IMG/VR virus record: IMGVR_UViG_3300027917_000197
Span: 1 to 20,510 of that record
Length of the DNA: 20,510 nt
DNA from: a virus
Strand: one strand, 5' to 3'
This document shows, one piece after another, positions 7,780-20,510 of this stretch (the first letter of the stretch is position 1; each line of letters opens with the position of its first letter). The position numbers and the translations under genes are program-made. Below the pieces are notes generated by a model, which saw only the letters and a program-made list of their open reading frames with translations, ran no database searches and was not told the origin of the DNA.

Positions 7780-9760
7780 TTTGTTTCCTCTTTGTTGCAT
7801 CGTTAATCAGGACTTCGAGCGCCTGACGCTTCTCTGAAATCTGTTTTAGCTGCGCTTCGTACAGCTTGATGGCGACGGTGTCGCTGACTTCCTGCGCGCG
7901 GGCGAGATTCAGGCGGGCGCGGGTTTCGAGTTCCAGCACCTGCGCTTCGCCGACCATGGCCTTGGTCATGGCCTCGATTTCCTGCACCTTGCCTCGTTGC
8001 ATGCCTTCCAGTTGGCGACGCTGTTCCTCGGCGACCTTGATTTCGACTTCCGGGTTCGGCGGCGGCTGGATCGCGGGCTGGCCGGACTGCGGGTCGATGG
8101 GGAAAATGCGGTCGGCATTCGGATGCTCGATGGCTTCCAGCCAGTCGCGCTCGACCTCGGCTTGGTTGTAGCCCGCCACCATCTGTGCGCGCTCCAGCAC
8201 CATCGAGGCCATCTGGATACGGGTTTCCCTGAGTGCCTGATTGGGGTCGGCTGCCGGGCTCAGGTCCTTCGGGTCCGCGCTGTAATCCTTCTGGAACACG
8301 GCCTGATCGCCGGAGTCGCCGAAGCTGAAATACTCCTCGGGGTTCAGGTATTCGCGGTTCAGCAGGTAGAGCTTGCGGTACTCGTCGCGCATGTTCCTGA
8401 AAACGCGTTTGAAAATACCGGTGAAAACCTGCATGCCCTGATTGATAAGTTCCCGCATGTTGTAGGCGGGGGTGTTCTGGCCGGGGTTTTTGCCCTGCAT
8501 CATTTCGGTGACGCTGGACACCTGCTGGCCGTACTGCACCAACAGGCCCAGAAGCTGAAAAAGCACCGGGGAGGGCGGATTGACCGGCAACGGCACGATG
8601 GAATCTTTCAGGGTGGCTCCAGAGGTATTCACCCTAATCCATTCGTACGGGTGCTTGAAGCGGATTTGACCGCCTTGGAACCGCGCACCTCGCCCGATGA
8701 AGCCACGGGAACCAACCTGCATGGTGCCAGAGTCGATGATCTGGTTTATGAGCGAATTGACCGACTCATTGATCGGGCCGAGTAGGCAGCCAAATCCCAG
8801 TTCATAGAAGGACCCATCAGGGGCTGGCAGGAACCCGTATTTGGTGAAGTAGTGTTTCGGCACGACGCGCGTGATCTGCTTGCCGTCCGACATCACTGCT
8901 TCAAATCGATTCTGGATACGGACCACTTTCGAGGACGAGCGATCCACTGTCACCACGTACGGTTCCTCAAGGCCGTCGTTGTCGAGGTCCAGCCAGCGGT
9001 GCTGTTCCAGCATTTCGTGCTGGTCATCGACGGTGGTGGCGGTGCGTTTTTCGCGCTCACCGGCAGCGGTTGGCTCTGGTGTTCCCGGTGTGCCGAGGTC
9101 TTTTTTCGTGTACAGGCCGGAGCGCTGCCGTTCCGTGATCTGTCGCGTGGACAGGTTGTAGACGTGCGTGATGGTGGCGTCTTCGATGCTGGTGGCCCAG
9201 TAATTGACCACTACTTCGTGCGGCAGGCAGAGTTCCGAGCGGTTGTGCCCGGCGACCCGGTCGAAATAGGACTTCTTGTACGCGATGCCGGAGATAGGCA
9301 GCACGGCGAGCAGCTTGTCGTGGTGTTCTTCCCATTGCTCGTCCTGATCGAGAAGCTGCCAACTCATGTGTTCCGCGACCCGGCGCGCCCGTTGTCGTTT
9401 CTGACCATCACGGTCTTCGCCATTCACCCGCATGCGAACAAGCGTTGGGGGTCTGACCAATGCGGGGTATGCCCGAGAGGCGAATTGCAGGGCGGCGATG
9501 GTCAGCAGGGGGAACTTGACATTCGACGCACCGGGCCACGGAAAGGACTTCTCTTTGGCGACCTGCATGGCCAGTTCGCGCCAGTCCTTGGCGGTTTTGT
9601 CCCAGTCGGAACGGGACATCAGGTCGTTTTCGTACTCGTCGATCACCATTCGGGCGATGGTGTCGGACTCCTCATCGCTCAGGAACTCGTCGATGTTGCC
9701 CGGTTCCTGCAAAATCTCGATGCTGAGACCCTGTTTTTCAAAAATCGGTACGGCACTCAT
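7739..9760 (-). CDS. portal protein, P22-like
   Basis: At 673 aa this is close to the roughly 725 aa of P22 portal. The layout is typical. There is an acidic N-terminal helix region (1-70), then SGIAYKKSYFD (157-167) in the wing, followed by NYWATSIEDATITHV (186-200). The segment LGFGCLLGPINESVNSLINQ (321-340) lies before the stem/crown. The C-terminal part (570-660) is a long, Gln- and charge-rich coiled coil that would form the barrel. It starts 1 base after the terminase stop with an AGGA site. Twelve copies would form the DNA entry ring that binds terminase and later the gp4-like factor. Confidence 0.9.
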   Translation of the reverse strand: MSAVPIFEKQGLSIEILQEPGNIDEFLSDEESDTIARMVIDEYENDLMSRSDWDKTAKDWRELAMQVAKEKSFPWPGASNVKFPLLTIAALQFASRAYPALVRPPTLVRMRVNGEDRDGQKRQRARRVAEHMSWQLLDQDEQWEEHHDKLLAVLPISGIAYKKSYFDRVAGHNRSELCLPHEVVVNYWATSIEDATITHVYNLSTRQITERQRSGLYTKKDLGTPGTPEPTAAGEREKRTATTVDDQHEMLEQHRWLDLDNDGLEEPYVVTVDRSSSKVVRIQNRFEAVMSDGKQITRVVPKHYFTKYGFLPAPDGSFYELGFGCLLGPINESVNSLINQIIDSGTMQVGSRGFIGRGARFQGGQIRFKHPYEWIRVNTSGATLKDSIVPLPVNPPSPVLFQLLGLLVQYGQQVSSVTEMMQGKNPGQNTPAYNMRELINQGMQVFTGIFKRVFRNMRDEYRKLYLLNREYLNPEEYFSFGDSGDQAVFQKDYSADPKDLSPAADPNQALRETRIQMASMVLERAQMVAGYNQAEVERDWLEAIEHPNADRIFPIDPQSGQPAIQPPPNPEVEIKVAEEQRRQLEGMQRGKVQEIEAMTKAMVGEAQVLELETRARLNLARAQEVSDTVAIKLYEAQLKQISEKRQALEVLINDATKRKQIEQQSKPDTDNGD

Positions 9761-13484: not shown

Positions 13485-13554
13485 TATCTGCTTTTGTAAC
13501 TCACTGAATGTAAAGCGCTTCTCAAATTAATCCTAATTCACATTGCGTTGGGTA

Positions 13555-13582
13555 TTGCATTCCGTGTTGCAACCCCTATCAT
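13555..13582 (+). promoter_or_regulatory. candidate plus-strand promoter
   Basis: TTGCAT (13555-13560) and TATCAT (13577-13582) are 16 bases apart, matching the sigma70 consensus 4/6 and 5/6. Transcription would begin near 13588, exactly where the hairpin-rich stretch starts, and read into the eight-gene operon. It is predicted from sequence only. Confidence 0.4.
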
Positions 13583-13587
13583 GTTCC

Positions 13588-13975
13588 CTGCCACGCCGTG
13601 AGGCGTCGCGCCCCGAGAGGGGCAGGGTGGTCCAGATAGACCGGCAACGGTCGCCACGTACTGGCAGAGTGAGACCTCGCCACCCACGGTACCCAATCCG
13701 TCGCACGGCTCCGACGAGCGTTGCTGACCTGCGGTGAACACCGCAGCGAGACGCCCCAGCCCGTCACGCGTCATTCCGAATCATACGATTCTCTCCTGCC
13801 CCGGCCTTGTGCCGGGGATGCCGCGGGGACAGCAAAGCGCGCTGTTCCTGCTCCTGCCAGTGGGCTTGCCCACAAAGGAAACTGACGACTGAGACGTGAC
13901 CGAATCGGGGTCACATAATCCTCAGAATCCGTTGCTGATTTTAGCACGGATTGCCGCTGTGGCGAGCGGCGAAAC
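13588..13975 (+). ncRNA. candidate structured RNA or long structured leader
   Basis: No convincing gene lies in 13485-14041. From 13590 the plus strand holds a dense chain of perfect hairpins: ACGCC/GGCGT with GTGA loop (13593-13606), GCCCC/GGGGC with GAGA loop (13610-13623), GACCG/CGGTC with GCAA loop (13639-13652), CGTCG/CGACG (13699-13716), CTGCGGT/ACCGCAG (13729-13746), CCCCGGC/GCCGGGG (13799-13817), ACAGC/GCTGT (13829-13845), GTGGG/CCCAC with CTTG loop (13860-13873) and GTGACC/GGTCAC (13896-13914). GGGTGG (13625-13630) and CCACCC (13680-13685) could close a multibranch junction. GNRA loops appear only on the plus strand, which fixes the sense. It matches no RNA family I know (not RNase P, tmRNA or a group I intron). 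Confidence 0.5.
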
Positions 13976-13993: not shown

Positions 13994-14041
13994 GCGGGGC
14001 TTCGGCCCCGCTGGTCTTTGGCAACCCTAGGAGAATCCATC
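13994..14041 (+). promoter_or_regulatory. gene-start module copy 1
   Basis: GCGGGGC/GCCCCGC with a TTCG loop (13994-14011), then the 14-mer variant GGTCTTTGGCAACC (14013-14026) and AGGAGA, 29 bases from 14-mer start to ATG. It is the first of eight such modules and is not preceded by a gene on this strand. Confidence 0.85.
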
Positions 14042-14179
14042 ATGGCAATCGCTGAACTCGTTTTCATCGCGCTGTTCGCAGTCACCCTGCTAGTCCCCGC
14101 TTTCCGCCGGGACCGGAGCAATATCCGTGGATACCCCACAATCGAAAACGGCAAGATGCAGTTCAACACCCCGGAATAA
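14042..14179 (+). CDS. small membrane-anchored protein (45 aa)
   Basis: The frame is open from 13985, but translation should start at the ATG at 14042 behind the AGGAGAATCC site. The product starts MAIAELVFIALFAVTLLVPA, one membrane helix (about 2-20), followed by a basic FRRDRSNIRGYP and a short polar tail. It is most likely an inner-membrane peptide with a cytoplasmic C-terminus, or a weak signal anchor. The stop codon lies in the loop of the next module's hairpin. Function is unknown; a superinfection or lysis-timing role is possible for a phage micro-protein but not shown. Confidence 0.7.
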   Translation: MAIAELVFIALFAVTLLVPAFRRDRSNIRGYPTIENGKMQFNTPE

Positions 14180-14214
14180 CCGGGGGTCTTGGTAAACCCA
14201 CAGGAGAACCGATT
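14169..14214 (+). promoter_or_regulatory. gene-start module copy 2
   Basis: CCCCGG/CCGGGG (14169-14174, 14180-14185) whose loop AATAA holds the TAA stop of the previous gene; then GGTCTTGGTAAACC (14185-14198) and AGGAGAA. The spacing from 14-mer start to ATG is 30 bases. Confidence 0.85.
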
Positions 14215-14433
14215 ATGACTAAAACCCGCAATTTTTCGACTACATCAGTAAGCGTAAACACTTGCCGCGGCTGTCTCGTTTTAACTTTTCGGACGCGACG
14301 CGCTGCTCAAGAATTTACCCTCAAATTATACGACCGAGACGATGTTCTCGACTGGGAAGTGCATGATTCTATTAGCGTTTATCGTAATGCTGATTGCGGC
14401 ATCAAAGAGTTAGATTTTTTCACCGGGGCGTAA
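14215..14433 (+). CDS. hypothetical protein (72 aa)
   Basis: This is a small protein with strands and charged turns, MTKTRNFSTTSVSVNTCRGC at the start and DREDDVLDWEVH-like acidic residues in the middle (YDRDDVLDWEVHDSISVY). Two Cys residues are close together (C17, C20: CRGC), with one more near the end (C61). It has no membrane segment. The DNA is visibly more AT-rich than its neighbours (runs such as tttttc and attata), which may indicate recent acquisition. No family was recognised. It is expressed from the module in front of it and ends in the loop of the next module. Confidence 0.7.
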   Translation: MTKTRNFSTTSVSVNTCRGCLVLTFRTRRAAQEFTLKLYDRDDVLDWEVHDSISVYRNADCGIKELDFFTGA

Positions 14434-14469
14434 AGCCCCCGGTTTTGGCAAACCCACAGGAGAATCACC
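14423..14469 (+). promoter_or_regulatory. gene-start module copy 3
   Basis: GGGGC/GCCCC (14425-14429, 14435-14439) with loop GTAAA containing the upstream TAA stop. GGTTTTGGCAAACC (14441-14454) follows; here the 14-mer itself is a perfect 5-bp hairpin with TGGC loop. The distance to ATG is 29 bases. Confidence 0.85.
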
Positions 14470-15321
14470 ATGAATAACATCATGTTAGCATCATTTAGCT
14501 GCAAGCTCTGGCCCGTCCAGCGGCAAGACCGGCGCATCACTAGCGCCATTGCCACGAAGGTCGGCCTCGGCGGAAAGTCGGGCGTTTTCAAGAAGTTCCG
14601 AATCAACACGCATCGTGACGAATGGTTGCGGATCACCCGTAACCGCGACGCGTTTCGGGCCTTTCACTACGCTATGACGATCCCGTACAAGCACGGCGCA
14701 TCGCTCCTGAACCCGCTCGCTTTTGACGAGTATCAGGATCGCTTCAATGCCGCGCAAATCGAGCATGACGATGCTGTCAACGCGTTCTTCTTAAACCTCG
14801 ACAGCATACTAGCCGAAGCGCGGCTTGCGCTGACAACCGATGACGGTACCTGCTATTTCCGCGAATCAGACTATGCGGACCTGACGCCCGACGCGTTCAC
14901 GTTCGATATGCTGGTCGAACCGTTAGTCCACGATGCGACGTTCGATGCCTTCTCTGACCTAATCGGCGCTGAGAAGGCGCAGGAACTCGCTGACAAGCTC
15001 GCGGCGGAAAACGATAGGGCATTCAGGGCCTCAGTCGATAGCGTCTCACAGCGCGTCTCAGACGCTCTGATGCGCGCTGCTGACCGGCTCCACAATGCCG
15101 AGCGCTGGAACCCGTCCGCGGTCGAAGCGTTGCAGGAACTCACGGACCTGCTGCCGGTGTTGAACATCACGAATGACCCGAAAATTGAGCAGACTCGCAA
15201 GCAAATCGCGAGCCTGTTCCGGGCCTATTCGGTCGATTCGTTCAACGACAAGGCAACGCGGCAGTCCTGCGCACACAAGGTTGACCAAATCTTGTCCAAA
15301 TTTGGTCGGTCGGGGAGTTAA
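14470..15321 (+). CDS. DUF3150-like protein next to MoxR ATPase
   Basis: This 283-aa, mostly helical protein has no membrane segment. Residues about 10-35 include CKLWPVQRQDRRITSAIATK, like the N-terminus of DUF3150 proteins, and the middle (IEHDDAVNAFFLNLDSI, about 97-113) fits the helical part of that family. A Ser/Ala/Glu-rich helix with EKAQELADKLAAENDRAF (about 168-185) and a C-terminal basic tail follow. DUF3150 proteins are often found next to a MoxR-type ATPase and a VWA protein, and that is exactly the case here. The family link is a recognition by pattern and context, not a proven match. Its molecular role is unknown; it may be a substrate or adaptor of the ATPase pair. Confidence 0.6.
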   Translation: MNNIMLASFSCKLWPVQRQDRRITSAIATKVGLGGKSGVFKKFRINTHRDEWLRITRNRDAFRAFHYAMTIPYKHGASLLNPLAFDEYQDRFNAAQIEHDDAVNAFFLNLDSILAEARLALTTDDGTCYFRESDYADLTPDAFTFDMLVEPLVHDATFDAFSDLIGAEKAQELADKLAAENDRAFRASVDSVSQRVSDALMRAADRLHNAERWNPSAVEALQELTDLLPVLNITNDPKIEQTRKQIASLFRAYSVDSFNDKATRQSCAHKVDQILSKFGRSGS

Positions 15322-15356
15322 TCCCCGGTCTTGGCAAACCCTCAGGAGAATCCATT
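15311..15356 (+). promoter_or_regulatory. gene-start module copy 4
   Basis: CGGGGA/TCCCCG (15311-15316, 15322-15327) whose loop GTTAA holds the upstream TAA stop; GGTCTTGGCAAACC at 15327-15340; AGGAGAATCC. The distance to ATG is 30 bases. Confidence 0.88.
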
Positions 15357-16349
15357 ATGAGCAACAAAGTATCCATCGCACAGGCCGCCCGGATCATGTC
15401 CACGGCCTACAAAAACCGCAAGCGCAACGGCAAGCCTTTCAAGGTCCTGCTGCTGGGTCCACCGGGCGTCGCAAAAACCGCGGCAGTCCGTCAACTTGGC
15501 CAGTCGGTCGGCATGCCGGTCGTGGAGTGGCTGCTGTCGAACAAGGCACCCGAGCATATAACGGGTTACCCGTACCTCGACAACGGCGTGATGAAGTACG
15601 CCCGGCCTGTTTTCTGGCCGACTGAGCAATGCGTTCTACTGGTCGATGAACTCGGACAGTGTCCGATTCAAGTCCAGAACGTCGCCATGCCGGTTGTCTA
15701 CGAAGGCACCAACGGCGTGCATACGCTGCCGGAAGGCACAATCACAATCGCTTGCGCGAACCGCGCGGAAGACCGGGCTGGCTCAACGGTACTGACAACG
15801 GCGCTCCGGCGTCGCTTCGATATCATCGTTGAGGTCGAACCCACGAAGGCCGAGTGGCTGGACTGGGCGAAAGCCAATAACGTCAACCCGTTCGTCGTAG
15901 CGTGGGTCGAATCGAACCTGAATACAGTCCTAGACTTCGATCCGAAGTCGAAGGAAGGTTACCTCGCACCCGCTACGCTGGAGCAAGCCGGGGATCAAGT
16001 CGATATGTACAACAACGACTGCAACAACCCCGATTTGGCTGTCACCCTGCACGGTACCCTCGGCGGCGACTACGCGTCGAAGCTGCTGGCGTTCATGGAA
16101 ACATACGACGCCCTGCCTAGCTACGACGATATCCGCACGTCACCCGAAACCGCCGCGGTATGCCCCGAGCATATCTCAGCGGTCGCGTCGATGCTGGCTG
16201 GCAACGCCCGGTACGTTCACGGTGCCGCGCTGGTCCGCTACATGATGCGCTACACGCCCGAAGCTCAGGCGCGGCTGGTCACGGCCCTGTCCGAAGCAGT
16301 ACGGCAACACCCCGAGGTCTCGGCGCTCGCTGAGACGCTGGGCCTCTAA
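15357..16349 (+). CDS. MoxR-family AAA+ ATPase
   Basis: This 330-aa protein has Walker A GPPGVAKT (34-41), Walker B VLLVDE (93-98), sensor 1 in ACANR (132-136) and a candidate arginine finger LRRRFD (150-155). MoxR-type AAA+ proteins form hexameric rings that remodel partner proteins, often together with a VWA-domain protein bound to metal, which is the next gene. Annotation pipelines may label such phage proteins CobS (cobaltochelatase), but no cobalamin genes are here. N4-like phages also carry a MoxR/VWA pair among their conserved genes. The gene starts at an AGGAGAATCC site 30 bases behind the 14-mer. All motifs look intact, so an active ATPase is expected. Confidence 0.88.
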   Translation: MSNKVSIAQAARIMSTAYKNRKRNGKPFKVLLLGPPGVAKTAAVRQLGQSVGMPVVEWLLSNKAPEHITGYPYLDNGVMKYARPVFWPTEQCVLLVDELGQCPIQVQNVAMPVVYEGTNGVHTLPEGTITIACANRAEDRAGSTVLTTALRRRFDIIVEVEPTKAEWLDWAKANNVNPFVVAWVESNLNTVLDFDPKSKEGYLAPATLEQAGDQVDMYNNDCNNPDLAVTLHGTLGGDYASKLLAFMETYDALPSYDDIRTSPETAAVCPEHISAVASMLAGNARYVHGAALVRYMMRYTPEAQARLVTALSEAVRQHPEVSALAETLGL

Positions 16350-16358
16350 GGCTCAACC

Positions 16359-16408
16359 GCGGGACCTTGTGTCCCGCCGGTCTTGGCAAACCTACAGGAG
16401 AATCCATT
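16359..16408 (+). promoter_or_regulatory. gene-start module copy 5
   Basis: GCGGGAC/GTCCCGC with loop CTTGT (16359-16377); here the stop codon is 9 bases upstream of the stem. GGTCTTGGCAAACC at 16379-16392; AGGAGAATCC. The distance to ATG is 30 bases. Confidence 0.88.
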
Positions 16409-17863
16409 ATGAACTACGCGAAATTTCAACACCCGCTGATTGAAACCGCGGTGCGCCATATCTGGCATCCGTGGATCAAGCGCATCATCAAGCGCTTGCC
16501 GATTGTTGACGGGTCGGCAGTCACCAAAACCATGGCGACTGACGGGGCGCGGATTTTTGTGAATCCGCACTACATCACGACTCTCAGCATCGGTGAATTG
16601 GCCGCTGTTCTCGTTCACGAAGCGCTGCACGTTATCATGCGGCATCCGCTTCGTCGCAATGGCCGCGACCCGCGCAAGTGGAACGTGGCATGCGATCATG
16701 CAATCAACTGGATCATCGACAAGCTCAACTACACCCTGCCCAAAAACGTGCTGGAAGGCCGTGAGGGGTCGGCAGAGCAAATCTACGGTCAGGTTGAGCG
16801 CGAGTACGAGCAAGAGCAGCAGTCGCGTCAGCAGAATAACGGCGAATCGTCGAAGTCTGAACAGTCAGATGACAATGCACAATCGAATGGCAGCAACGAA
16901 TCCAAGGATTCCGAGCAGCAGGACGGTGGTGATTCAGAGTCTGGCGAGCAGGGCGAGCAGGGCGAAAGTGGCGAATCCGGTCAATCCGGCGAGGCTGCCG
17001 AGTCTGGCGAGTCTAGCTCAGAATCGACTGCTGGTAACAGCGGCGATCCGGGCAACGCTTACGACGATGACGGCGTGGACCTGTTCGACTATCCGCTGGA
17101 AGACGGCGAAACAATGGCCGACGCCGAGCGGCGAATCGACAGGCTTTGCGCCGGGGCTTCCATGGATATGGAACACGACGACGAAGAACCTTCGCACTAC
17201 GAGAAGGAACTGCTGATTGACCGCGCCGAGACGGAACTCGACTGGCCGAAGGAACTGGAAGAATACATCCAGAACCTCGGCGGTGCCGAATACAGCATGA
17301 ATCCACCGCACATCGGATTCATGCAGCAGGGCATCATCTGCAATCAGTTGAACCCGTCCGGTATCGGCAACGTAGTGCTAGCAGTTGACGTGTCTGGCTC
17401 CATCGACAAGCCGAAGCTCAAGCTGGTCATCACGCACCTGATGCTGTTCATCGAGAACATCGACTACGAATCGCTGCGAATCATCACCTGCGATACCTCG
17501 GTGCGGTTTGACGAGACGTACTTCCGCGGTGTACCGGTAGACTGGAACGACTTGGTTCGTCGGGGCATCACGGGCGGCGGCACTAAGGTGAAACCCGTTT
17601 TCGACAAGCTCAACGACGAAGGCGTGACGCCTGACCTGCTGATTTACTTCACGGACCTGCTGATGCCGCGCAAAGGCATCAGCATGCGCGAAAGAGCGAT
17701 TCAGGAAGACGATCCGGGCTACCCGGTAGTCTGGCTGGTCGATCAGGAAGGCGCTTGTGACGGTACCGGTGGTCTCAACGACCCGGAAGAATCCACGGAC
17801 AATATGTGGAAAACGTACGGCTGGGAACCGGAGTACGGCATCGCAATCGACGCTTGCAAGTAA
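16409..17863 (+). CDS. metallopeptidase-like/VWA protein, MoxR partner
   Basis: This 484-aa protein starts at the ATG at 16409 (frame open from 16367). The N-terminal domain has HEALHVIMRH (70-79), an HExxH zinc-peptidase-type motif, then CDHAINWIID (96-104), as in DUF2201-type putative metallopeptidases. A long acidic, Ser/Gln/Gly-rich linker follows (about 128-225, with repeated ESGE and GEQGE units). The C-terminal VWA-like domain has MIDAS DVSGS (327-331), TGGGTKV (388-394) and FTD (414-416). Such proteins pair with MoxR ATPases, here the previous gene. Phage versions are often called CobT-like; the HExxH domain argues against a plain cobaltochelatase. Peptidase activity is possible, and metal-dependent binding by the MIDAS is likely. 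Confidence 0.88.
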   Translation: MNYAKFQHPLIETAVRHIWHPWIKRIIKRLPIVDGSAVTKTMATDGARIFVNPHYITTLSIGELAAVLVHEALHVIMRHPLRRNGRDPRKWNVACDHAINWIIDKLNYTLPKNVLEGREGSAEQIYGQVEREYEQEQQSRQQNNGESSKSEQSDDNAQSNGSNESKDSEQQDGGDSESGEQGEQGESGESGQSGEAAESGESSSESTAGNSGDPGNAYDDDGVDLFDYPLEDGETMADAERRIDRLCAGASMDMEHDDEEPSHYEKELLIDRAETELDWPKELEEYIQNLGGAEYSMNPPHIGFMQQGIICNQLNPSGIGNVVLAVDVSGSIDKPKLKLVITHLMLFIENIDYESLRIITCDTSVRFDETYFRGVPVDWNDLVRRGITGGGTKVKPVFDKLNDEGVTPDLLIYFTDLLMPRKGISMRERAIQEDDPGYPVVWLVDQEGACDGTGGLNDPEESTDNMWKTYGWEPEYGIAIDACK

Positions 17864-17869
17864 CACCCG

Positions 17870-17917
17870 CGGGGGCGCAAGCCCCCCGGTCTTGGCAAAC
17901 CTCAAAGGAGAATCACT
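17870..17917 (+). promoter_or_regulatory. gene-start module copy 6
   Basis: GGGGGC/GCCCCC with a GCAA tetraloop (17871-17886), 7 bases after the previous stop; GGTCTTGGCAAACC at 17888-17901; AAAGGAGAATC. The distance to ATG is 30 bases. Confidence 0.88.
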
Positions 17918-18217
17918 ATGAAAAACACGTTAGTAATTAGAACCGACAGCGACGATGACTTCCGCGCTATGCACAAGATGTTTTCGGATATCCTGCGCGC
18001 GGTCTCGTCCGCTGGTCAGACTGACGGACCCATTACGATGTTCGGCGTGGCTGGCGATGAACCCGGCACGGATCAAATCCGCGCGGAGATTGACAGCATC
18101 GAACAGCGGGTCCTGATTCGCGCGGTACCCAACGGCAACGCAAAGCACGTTCATCCCGATACGGATGAAGACGAGGTGCTGCGCGAACTGCCTGAGTTTG
18201 TGCCGATGATGCACTGA
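17918..18217 (+). CDS. hypothetical acidic protein (99 aa)
   Basis: This acidic protein starts MKNTLVIRTDSDDDFRAMHK and has two likely helices (about 12-30, 55-67) around short strands. The C-terminus is Asp/Glu-rich (HPDTDEDEVLRELPEF). It has no Cys, membrane segment or catalytic motif. It follows the VWA gene and shares its transcription unit, so it may belong to the same system, but the sequence gives no direct evidence. Acidic small phage proteins can mimic DNA or bind host proteins; that is speculation here. Confidence 0.75.
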   Translation: MKNTLVIRTDSDDDFRAMHKMFSDILRAVSSAGQTDGPITMFGVAGDEPGTDQIRAEIDSIEQRVLIRAVPNGNAKHVHPDTDEDEVLRELPEFVPMMH

Positions 18218-18222
18218 CCGGT

Positions 18223-18267
18223 CGGGGCTTCGGCCCCGGTCTTGGCAACCCTAAAGGAGAATTGATT
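18223..18267 (+). promoter_or_regulatory. gene-start module copy 7
   Basis: CGGGGC/GCCCCG with a TTCG tetraloop (18223-18238), 5 bases after the previous stop; a one-base-shorter motif GGTCTTGGCAACC (18238-18250); AAAGGAGAATTG. The distance to ATG is 30 bases. Confidence 0.87.
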
Positions 18268-18474
18268 ATGAAAACTTACCAAGTATTTTGTGCGAATTGC
18301 TGGCAGGAATACCGGCAACGATGCAGCACGGAACCAAAGATATGCGGCGCTTGCGGCGCTGACTATATCGCAACCCGCGAAGATCGCTGCACTGTGCGCT
18401 CCGAAATTACCGGCGAGCGCTGCATCAAGCGACGCGATCACTTAAACGCGCACCAGTGGCGCAATCGGGGTTAA
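18268..18474 (+). CDS. small double zinc-site protein (68 aa)
   Basis: The start is ATG at 18268; a TTG at 18262 is in frame but less likely. Eight likely ligands are in order: C8-x2-C11 and C26-x2-C29 form a zinc ribbon, and C41-x10-C52-x5-H58-x3-H62 forms a second CCHH site. The rest is basic. Zinc-ribbon micro-proteins in phages usually bind nucleic acid or host RNA polymerase or ribosome parts. No known family match was recognised. The stop lies in the loop of the next module's hairpin. Confidence 0.75.
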   Translation: MKTYQVFCANCWQEYRQRCSTEPKICGACGADYIATREDRCTVRSEITGERCIKRRDHLNAHQWRNRG

Positions 18475-18511
18475 TACCCCGGTCTTGGCAAACCCTAAAG
18501 GAGAATCCATT
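18466..18511 (+). promoter_or_regulatory. gene-start module copy 8
   Basis: CGGGGT/ACCCCG (18466-18471, 18476-18481) with loop TAAT containing the upstream TAA stop; GGTCTTGGCAAACC at 18481-18494; AAAGGAGAATCC. The distance to ATG is 31 bases. Confidence 0.88.
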
Positions 18512-18862
18512 ATGAACAAACCCGTTACTCGATTATTCACCCGGTCTGCGCTCGAAAATTGGTTCGGCGCTACCGGCGACAAGGCACCCGACTGGGTTGG
18601 GGGCCGTGAAACAATGGAACTGTGCCGCGATGCGCTTCGGCAACTGTGGGATTTCCCAAAGGACACCAAACGCATCTGGCTCACAGCCAGCACGGTGCCG
18701 ACACCCGGCGAGTCATATCGTCTGAAAAGGGCCGGGGTTGGCTGGCTGGACAACGGCCCGAGCTACGAAAGCGGACGGTTTTCGTTTGACAGTTCAGCCC
18801 AGCGGTACCTCGGCAGGCGATTCGACACGAAGTACGTCTATATCACAATGGAATATGAGTAA
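18512..18862 (+). CDS. hypothetical protein, last gene of plus operon (116 aa)
   Basis: The start is the ATG at 18512 behind the AAAGGAGAATCC site. The protein is basic, with a helical N-terminal half containing WVGGRETMELCRDALRQLWD (about 28-47) and a strand-rich C-terminal half (RIWLTASTVPTPGESYRL, then KYVYITMEYE at the end). It has no membrane segment. It is followed at once by a strong terminator, so it closes the operon. The family was not recognised. Confidence 0.75.
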   Translation: MNKPVTRLFTRSALENWFGATGDKAPDWVGGRETMELCRDALRQLWDFPKDTKRIWLTASTVPTPGESYRLKRAGVGWLDNGPSYESGRFSFDSSAQRYLGRRFDTKYVYITMEYE

Positions 18863-18870
18863 GACCTTGA

Positions 18871-18905
18871 GCCCTGCTCCCCGTCCGGGGGGCGGGGCTT
18901 TTTTT
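18871..18905 (+). terminator. Rho-independent terminator of the plus operon
   Basis: A 12-bp GC-rich stem with two G-U pairs (left arm 18871-18882, right arm 18887-18898, TCCG-type loop) is followed by seven T (18899-18905), 8 bases after the last stop codon. It ends the eight-gene transcript. Confidence 0.85.
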
Positions 18906-18972
18906 ATGTCCACGCAAGATTTCTTATGCCAGAAGGGATGCGGCGAGCGCTGCGGAGTTGCGGCTCGCGCTT

Positions 18973-19011
18973 AAAAAAAGACCCCGCGGCGAGCGTCCTT
19001 ACCGCGGGGTC
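18973..19011 (-). terminator. Rho-independent terminator for leftward transcript
   Basis: A perfect 10-bp stem (GACCCCGCGG at 18980-18989, CCGCGGGGTC at 19002-19011) has seven A on its left (18973-18979), which read as a T-tract on the minus strand. It lies 53 bases behind the end of the leftward gene at 19064 and blocks it from running into the plus operon. Its right arm also serves as the stem of the ninth copy of the start module. Confidence 0.8.
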
Positions 19012-19048
19012 GGCTTTGGCAAGCCCAGCAAGAAAAGGAGAATCCTTG
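19012..19048 (+). repeat. orphan ninth copy of the gene-start module
   Basis: GGCTTTGGCAAGCC (19012-19025) is a perfect 5-bp hairpin with TGGC loop; AAGGAGAATCC follows (19034-19045), but no ATG: TTG CTG stands where ATT ATG is expected, and only sequence antisense to the leftward gene follows. About 7 extra bases lie between the 14-mer and the ribosome site. It is probably a remnant left after loss or exchange of a gene. Confidence 0.7.
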
Positions 19049-19063
19049 CTGCCTGTAAATATA

Positions 19064-20143
19064 TCACAAATCGTCGGCTGTCACGCCACTTGGATAATCC
19101 TCATACACGTAGCGATCCGTTTGTTCGGGCCGTTTCGATCCTTCCTGATCGTCACCCACACCCCTCACAAAATCCTGAATATTCCTCCTCTCCCACGATT
19201 TTTCTCGGACCATTGCCCCGGTCCACTCCTCAACTAACCCATTACGCCTTACCCTAAACCCGCTCCTGTCACAGATTTCGTATTGCGACGGATACTCGTC
19301 GGCATTCGGATTCAGGATGCTGTAGTCGCCATTGAAGGTCGGCGGCGGTAGTGACAGTTCAGGGCGGCCAAAAACGAAGTGTAACTTACCGTCCAGATAG
19401 CGATGCGCGACTTCTGGTATGCGGACATTCGCAACCGGGACACCAGCAATGATCGTGTGATTGGCATACAAATGCTCAATCAGCCCACCGGTATTGATTA
19501 GCCAGCCAATACCTGCTGCTGGCGAATCGTACCCTGTCAGCGACAAGCTGGCTGGTATTGGCTGAACATTGACGTTGTTGTTCGCAATGACATTGTTTCC
19601 TGTCATCGCGAGATGGGCGATGTCGCCTACGCCTACGCTCGTTCCATTATTAGTAAACGTGCTGGGAGCAAACGCCGTCATCGTCCCAGACGGCGTACCC
19701 GGAAGAAGATTCCACGTTACTGTGATGGTGGATTCAGGTGACAGCGTAACCCAAATGTCACCAAGCACATAACCAGACCCGTCTATATCAAGCGACAGCG
19801 GCGAGAGCGAGAGCCCAGCCAGCGTAACCGGGATGTTCTGTCCGTAAACAGCATCAGGATCAAATGCGTTGAGAGTAAGCGCCCCAGTGGGAGCGAACAC
19901 CGCTGGGCCAGAGGTTACCGCCGTGACAAATTTGGCGAGCGTGAGTGTGCCGTCATCTGTGACGTACACGTCACCGATTTCACGACTTGACGTTGCCCAA
20001 TAATTGGTCGCCCAGTAATTAGTCGCCCAATAACTGGGTAGCCAATAACCACCTACCTCGGTTGGCTCACCCCAATACTCGTCAGCCCAGTAGTTACTGG
20101 CGAAGTATTTGCTGGCAAACCATCCTGCGCCGCCCGCTGCCAT
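19064..20143 (-). CDS. putative tail/fibre protein with YWAT repeats
   Basis: The N-terminus of this 359-aa protein has aromatic repeats (FASKYFASNYWADEYW, then YWATNYWATNYWATS, about 9-52), a pattern of five-residue A-[TS]-[NK]-Y-[WF] units seen in phage proteins of unknown role. The middle (about 55-260) is Thr/Ser/Gly-rich and beta-structured. The C-terminus has YEICDRSGFRVRRNGLVEEW (about 287-306), then ERRNIQDFVRGVGDDQ (about 319-334), close to the CDRTGF...WEPRHPQDFVR motif of small phage proteins, here fused to a long N-terminal part. It lies 4 bases behind the upstream gene and ends before the minus-strand terminator. Confidence 0.75.
   Translation of the reverse strand: MAAGGAGWFASKYFASNYWADEYWGEPTEVGGYWLPSYWATNYWATNYWATSSREIGDVYVTDDGTLTLAKFVTAVTSGPAVFAPTGALTLNAFDPDAVYGQNIPVTLAGLSLSPLSLDIDGSGYVLGDIWVTLSPESTITVTWNLLPGTPSGTMTAFAPSTFTNNGTSVGVGDIAHLAMTGNNVIANNNVNVQPIPASLSLTGYDSPAAGIGWLINTGGLIEHLYANHTIIAGVPVANVRIPEVAHRYLDGKLHFVFGRPELSLPPPTFNGDYSILNPNADEYPSQYEICDRSGFRVRRNGLVEEWTGAMVREKSWERRNIQDFVRGVGDDQEGSKRPEQTDRYVYEDYPSGVTADDL
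19995..20039 (-). repeat. 15-bp tandem repeat inside the YWAT protein gene
   Basis: Three near-identical 15-bp units (19995-20009, 20010-20024, 20025-20039), each starting GCCCA on the plus strand, encode repeated W-A-T-N-Y units; a degenerate fourth follows. Length variation between related phages is likely here. Confidence 0.75.
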
Positions 20144-20147
20144 CGTC

Positions 20148-20510
20148 TTACGACGACGGGCTAAGCGTCATCGCCGTCCTGTTGTTGCTGGCATCGAGCG
20201 TAGAGCTTACTCGGTCTTCGTTATCGCCCGGATCGCGGAATACCGTGCCATTGGTATTCGTCTCTCCGGCCAAAACCGCAAGTATGATGCTCATAATCTG
20301 TTGTGCGGTGTAGGAACCGTTCGTCTCGCAAACCTTGGCCCAGATTTCCGTGACATACGTGCTGTCCAGTGCATCGGACGTAAACGCATTAGTGGCAATC
20401 TTGGCTGCGGTGATCGCGTCCGAGTCCAGTGACGATGCGGTTATCGCGTTGGCAACAGTATCGTTCACGGTAACCAGCGGCGTGGCATCGTTCAGGTCGA
20501 AGTCCAGTAA
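20148..20510 (-). CDS. phage structural / fibre-like protein, C-terminal part
   Basis: The frame is open to the right edge, so the start is outside the window; a GTG at 20468 is only an internal codon. The visible 120 residues have AITASSLDSDAITAAKIATN, a repeat type common in tail fibre and related proteins. A C-terminal domain follows with YTAQQIMSIILAVLAGETNT, then FRDPGDNEDRVSSTLDASNN and RTAMTLS, matching a motif I know from phage virion proteins (FRD..D.KDRVTATVDA.GNRTAV). It ends 4 bases before the YWAT protein gene. A fibre or upper-baseplate role is likely. Confidence 0.75.
   Translation of the reverse strand, partial: LLDFDLNDATPLVTVNDTVANAITASSLDSDAITAAKIATNAFTSDALDSTYVTEIWAKVCETNGSYTAQQIMSIILAVLAGETNTNGTVFRDPGDNEDRVSSTLDASNNRTAMTLSPSS

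Follow-up and report, generated by a model that had tools for sequence, protein, structure and literature searches.

A hairpin-dense region between divergent transcription units of a phage genome, a candidate structured leader RNA of an operon

Genes and signals around the region

The window, the whole stretch of DNA analysed here, corresponds to a linear virus record 20,510 bases long. Its late genes for portal, TerL, capsid and a probable TerS lie on the minus strand, to the left of the region at 13588-13975, and eight plus-strand genes, g1 to g8, span 14042-18862. The region sits between these divergent units, ahead of g1. The first gene, g1 (14042..14179, plus strand), was recognized by its open reading frame (ORF) and Shine-Dalgarno (SD) sequence; its 45-amino-acid product has one hydrophobic stretch near the N-terminus and no Pfam or PHROGs family match. 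Among g2-g8 (14215..18862, plus strand), family matches assigned g4 (15357-16349) to the MoxR-like AAA ATPases and g5 (16409-17863) to the DUF2201 metallopeptidase/VWA-like proteins. Sequence and fold indicate an intrinsic terminator of the operon at 18870..18905 (plus strand), a G+C-rich hairpin followed by seven T. Another hairpin that resembles a terminator and has a run of A/T, at about 18970-19015, faces the tail genes of the minus strand, so that the plus-strand operon and the genes at 19064-20510 end convergently.

The gap between the divergent units, 13485..13587, is low in G+C (0.40 versus 0.57) and is the likely place of both promoters. An earlier note, made by reading the sequence, had placed a sigma70-like promoter just before the first stem of the region. 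Such a site does exist (TTGCAT-16-TATCAT, 13555-13582, plus strand, score 8/12), but it is weak, and 86 sites on the plus strand of the window score at least 8/12, so that it is no better than expected from chance density. No plus-strand promoter was reported by the promoter scan at 9/12.

Four ORFs overlap 13588-13975. None has the AGGAGAAT site seen at the operon genes, and family searches with all four gave no match, in agreement with the description of the region as gene-free. Leader-peptide attenuation through a small ORF at 13818-13892 (MPRGQQSALFLLLPVGLPTKETDD) was considered and set aside, as this ORF lacks a spaced SD sequence.

Each junction from g1/g2 to g7/g8 carries a G+C-rich hairpin on the plus strand. 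The upstream stop codon lies inside the hairpin loop in five of the seven junctions, the loops of the other two are GCAA or UUCG, and the g4/g5 junction has an additional hairpin with a CUUGU loop. These hairpins belong to a cassette that is repeated before every plus-strand gene from g2 onwards: a G+C-rich hairpin, CGGTCTTGGCAAACC or a close variant, AGGAGAA(T), and ATG. Within 14154-18514 it stands before 14215, 14470, 15357, 16409, 17918, 18268 and 18512, and a partial copy precedes 14042. Searches of the viral collection for exact cassette patterns found five single-copy matches, none of them a repeated cassette.

The first of these intercistronic-type hairpins is GCGGGGC-UUCG-GCCCCGC at 13994..14011 (plus strand; pair probability 0.99), enclosed by GACC/GGUC. 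Its 16-mer CGGGGCTTCGGCCCCG recurs at 18223-18238. It is also the one weak terminator-like match between the region and g1, with the tail TGGTCTTTGG. The region is thus 5′ of a same-strand gene with no strong terminator between them, and it shares the operon's style of stable plus-strand hairpins, which gives indirect support to co-transcription with the operon.

Excess of hairpins and stable tetraloops on one strand

We counted as a perfect hairpin at least 5 Watson-Crick pairs with a loop of 3-8 bases, and as a stable tetraloop GNRA or CUUG. The 388 bases of 13588-13975 contain 11 perfect hairpins, where the earlier note had seen about nine or more. Dinucleotide-shuffled sequences had 2.6 +/- 1.6 (maximum 9; none of 2,000 shuffles reached 11), and windows of equal length across this DNA had 2.9 +/- 1.8 on average. 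Stable tetraloops numbered four, against a mean of 0.03 and a maximum of 2 in 10,000 shuffles. All of them (GUGA, GAGA, GCAA and CUUG) are on the plus strand and none on the minus strand, where the same hairpins have the loops UCAC, UCUC, UUGC and CAAG; the strand bias reported earlier was therefore borne out. A fifth stable loop, the UUCG of 13994-14011, lies beyond the 3′ end of the region. No 450-base window with at least three stable-tetraloop hairpins was found on either strand of 1.63 Mb of related phage DNA. Taken together, the hairpin, tetraloop, strand and related-DNA counts make chance very unlikely.

The folding energy of the region was -180 kcal/mol, lower than that of shuffled sequence (z -4.78). 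By strand, z was -4.6 on the plus strand versus -2.4 on the minus strand, and the region ranked third of 104 plus-strand windows. This value is not unique in the genome: coding windows reach z of -4.2 to -6.0, and some on the minus strand exceed the region. The density of the hairpins and the identity of their loops therefore carry the argument, rather than the folding energy. These two features and the strand bias support the proposal of a selected RNA fold, of which the fold itself is a prediction, and we consider it quite probable that selection acted at the RNA level on the plus strand.

Predicted fold of the transcript

In a computed base-pairing model of the transcript, probabilities exceeded 0.9 for most hairpins. 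The 5′ domain (13588..13765, plus strand; pair probabilities mostly 0.84-0.99) has tetraloop hairpins at 13593-13606 (GUGA) and 13610-13623 (GAGA) and further hairpins at 13686-13701, 13703-13724 and 13729-13746. It also includes a cloverleaf-like four-way junction of three hairpins at 13625..13685, closed by GGGUGGU/GCCACCC (probability 0.95), with the GCAA hairpin (13639-13652) inside it. In spite of its shape, this junction is not a tRNA according to ARAGORN. The 3′ domain (13778..13975, plus strand; pair probabilities mostly 0.91-1.0) has hairpins at 13778-13791, 13799-13817 (CUUGU loop), 13823-13851 (11 bp), 13860-13873 (CUUG), 13896-13914, 13926-13952 and 13953-13970. Of the multibranch closing that had been suspected, the stem joining the 5′ and 3′ ends of the region is predicted to form only in a minority of structures (probability at most 0.33), and the favoured closings are GGGUGGU/GCCACCC and a pairing with the SD sequence of g1.

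In the latter pairing, a predicted anti-Shine-Dalgarno sequence, UCUCCUG (13792..13798, plus strand), meets UAGGAGA, the SD sequence of g1 (14028..14034, plus strand). Its modelled probability was 0.67-0.93 in most of the transcript lengths tried, and about 0.2 in two of three transcripts ending at the start codon. In the models, the g1 SD sequence was unpaired in 4% with the real leader versus 41 +/- 12% with shuffled leaders, none of 300 being as low, and 0.3% of shuffles reached the observed pairing between the SD sequence and the region. This single test followed the discovery of the pairing, and the complement UCUCCU is no more than six bases long. The SD sequences of g2-g8 were 27-62% unpaired in local folds. 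Control of g1 at the level of translation is supported by this test but not established. A trans-acting role, in which the region would pair with the SD cassettes that recur along g1-g8, was rejected, the pairing energy being no better than that of shuffles (P 0.18).

Searches for known families and relatives

No Rfam 15 covariance model matched the window at the gathering score, and ARAGORN found no tRNA or tmRNA gene there. With a permissive threshold, the best Rfam match was SorX, on one hairpin only (12.1 bits versus 46.6 for gathering, E 5.9). The empty searches are in line with the earlier statement that the region resembles no RNase P, tmRNA, intron or riboswitch. A blastn search for DNA homologues in phages, plasmids and 50 viral records gave chance-level pieces only. 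Two single-sequence covariance models, one for each half of the region and run without a positive control, matched nothing in the 50 viral records. The nearest relatives have 55% identity in TerL and 62% in capsid; searches through g3, TerS, VWA, capsid and tail proteins, the operon cassette and bacterial genomes found none nearer. The region therefore matches no known family, and it is not to be called a new class short of relatives or transcripts.

We also examined the early/late junctions of relatives. In one of them, L008, a gene-poor stretch (L008:98-481) directly upstream of TerS has 10 perfect hairpins per 388 bases, and it is the only one in 1.66 Mb to equal the density of our region. 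It is a positional, not a sequence, counterpart. Its fold z is -8.8 on the early strand and -7.5 on the late strand, its loops on the TerS strand are UAAA and AGUA, and it had no Rfam match. Among 40 distinct TerS-upstream stretches, several, including those of L074, L069, L039 and L007, were strongly structured; strand preference was mixed, and A+T tracts may inflate some of the values. The junction of another clade has a single six-pair hairpin with three two-sided changes, which is too little for covariation.

Interpretation and alternative explanations

The feature is real and very unusual, and a structured operon leader RNA is its most likely identity. The earlier note had left a choice between a stand-alone RNA and a leader of the eight-gene operon. 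The leader fits better because the region runs on into the operon without a strong terminator before g1, and because the predicted fold captures the ribosome-binding site of g1. In such a scheme, plus-strand transcription would start just upstream of 13588 and run into g1-g8, and the leader RNA is predicted to fold into two hairpin-rich domains, of which the 3′ domain would set UCUCCUG opposite the SD sequence of g1 and close on it. Initiation at g1 would then be poor unless the SD helix were opened by a bound protein or ligand, by translation, or by a change in transcription or processing; the pairing could in this way act as a regulator of g1. The GNRA, CUUG and UUCG hairpins might also stabilize the 5′ end of the mRNA. 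This full reading, in which 13588-13975 is the structured 5′ leader of the g1-g8 mRNA and hides the ribosome-binding site of g1, is held tentatively, at somewhat less than an even chance. Against it, g1 is a 45-amino-acid orphan and an odd target for a 400-base leader, and the equally placed dense region of L008 has a strong z on both strands, as a DNA-level element would too.

A less likely rival is a separate non-coding RNA of the phage, about 400 bases long, that is either processed out of the operon mRNA or terminated ahead of it and serves in protein binding or as a scaffold. Most of the hairpins and the junction at 13625-13685 form without the operon, and the lack of an Rfam match suits this reading. 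Structured RNAs of similar size are made by phages, cabRNA of about 400 nt being one (PMC10686824), and bacteria have large ornate RNAs, among them GOLLD and ROOL (PMC12286853). Its 3′ end, however, would have no terminator save the UUCG hairpin with a weak T-rich tail, the predicted fold runs into the SD sequence of g1, and no homologue was found elsewhere, whereas the known large RNAs are widespread. Because the dense region of L008 lies upstream of TerS, we kept a further rival in which the early/late junction carries an element that works as DNA, for instance an origin of replication or a site for packaging, so that the hairpins matter as DNA and the RNA loops are incidental. TerS-adjacent DNA is a usual place for pac sites, the L008 counterpart is strongly structured on both strands, and so are the junctions of L074, L069 and L039. 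This explanation is nevertheless unlikely: in our region the stable RNA tetraloops are on one strand only, with a far stronger fold z there, and a check by origin criteria found no direct repeats (iterons), no A+T-rich unwinding element and no GC-skew switch. If the L008 stretch is instead taken as a counterpart made as RNA, one may think of a new large phage RNA class, made early in infection at the early/late junction, whose architecture of roughly twelve stable hairpins in two domains, and not its sequence, is kept between phages; we rate this as quite unlikely.

We regard as improbable a cis-acting antitermination leader like put of HK022, in which the nascent RNA would bind RNA polymerase and let it pass the intergenic hairpins. 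The region would stand at the head of an operon transcript in which each gene junction has a G+C-rich hairpin, but these intercistronic hairpins lack T runs, so that no antitermination is needed, and put is much shorter and simpler than this region. Even less probable is that the phage has collected palindromes of bacterial type, REP-like elements or terminators, that share no function. For the stem CCCCGGC-CTTGT-GCCGGGG, exact matches of 20-21 bases occur in unrelated plasmid records from Alphaproteobacteria (Shinella, Pannonibacter and Ketogulonicigenium), and this CUUGU-loop stem is the only hairpin that SorX matches. The palindrome matches are weak, however (E about 1-4), the other ten hairpins have no plasmid match, and the hairpins of the region differ from each other in sequence, with no repeat family among them.

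Comparison with known systems

The T4 gene 32 leader and related translational operators are phage mRNA leaders with translational control (PMC3014915, PMC535899). As there, a structured RNA would precede a phage gene and is predicted to affect how ribosomes reach it. Our region differs in being far longer, with many more hairpins and no known regulator, and its predicted SD pairing uses a strand 230 bases upstream. HK022 putRNA, a cis-acting antitermination element (PMC9378689), resembles it in that an early transcript of the phage would begin with hairpins; unlike putRNA, the region is about 400 bases long with more than ten hairpins, and its operon has no internal terminators in need of antitermination. 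The cabRNA of staphylococcal phages is likewise a hairpin-bearing phage RNA of about 400 bases beside terminase genes, and it too has no sequence common between phages. It arises within terS/terL on a late transcript (PMC10686824), whereas our region is outside terS with its structure on the opposite strand. GOLLD and ROOL share with it the character of a large ornate RNA (PMC12286853), but they are larger and widespread, and the region has no Rfam match at a useful threshold.

If the RNA is made, it would be an unusually elaborate leader before an operon with a MoxR-type ATPase and a DUF2201 VWA-like protein, and the idea would become testable that in this phage group the junction stays structured even as its sequence changes. 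Phage structured RNAs are usually found by comparing relatives. This region, with no relatives in the collections searched, was visible solely from its own loops and stems.

Further observations on junctions and neighbouring genes

The TerS-upstream stretch of L009 appeared by eye to be partly tRNA-gene-like. A+T-rich (TA)n tracts occur in the divergent non-coding junctions of both L068 and L069, and the two junctions also have patches of sequence in common. L068 (Manatee Spring phage, MW202796) has an int-alpA RNA (RF02996) at 7904-7970, just upstream of TerL.

MoxR and VWA here resemble proteins of N4-like phages, which prompted the idea of N4-type DNA-hairpin promoters. This was set aside: the window has no gene for a giant virion RNA polymerase, and the loop sizes vary. 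The g4-g5 module was absent from the head-gene relatives tested. In L065, g3 (of no family), g4 and g5 (14470-17863 in the window) co-occur in another order at 26-28% identity, so that g3 may belong to a MoxR-VWA module.
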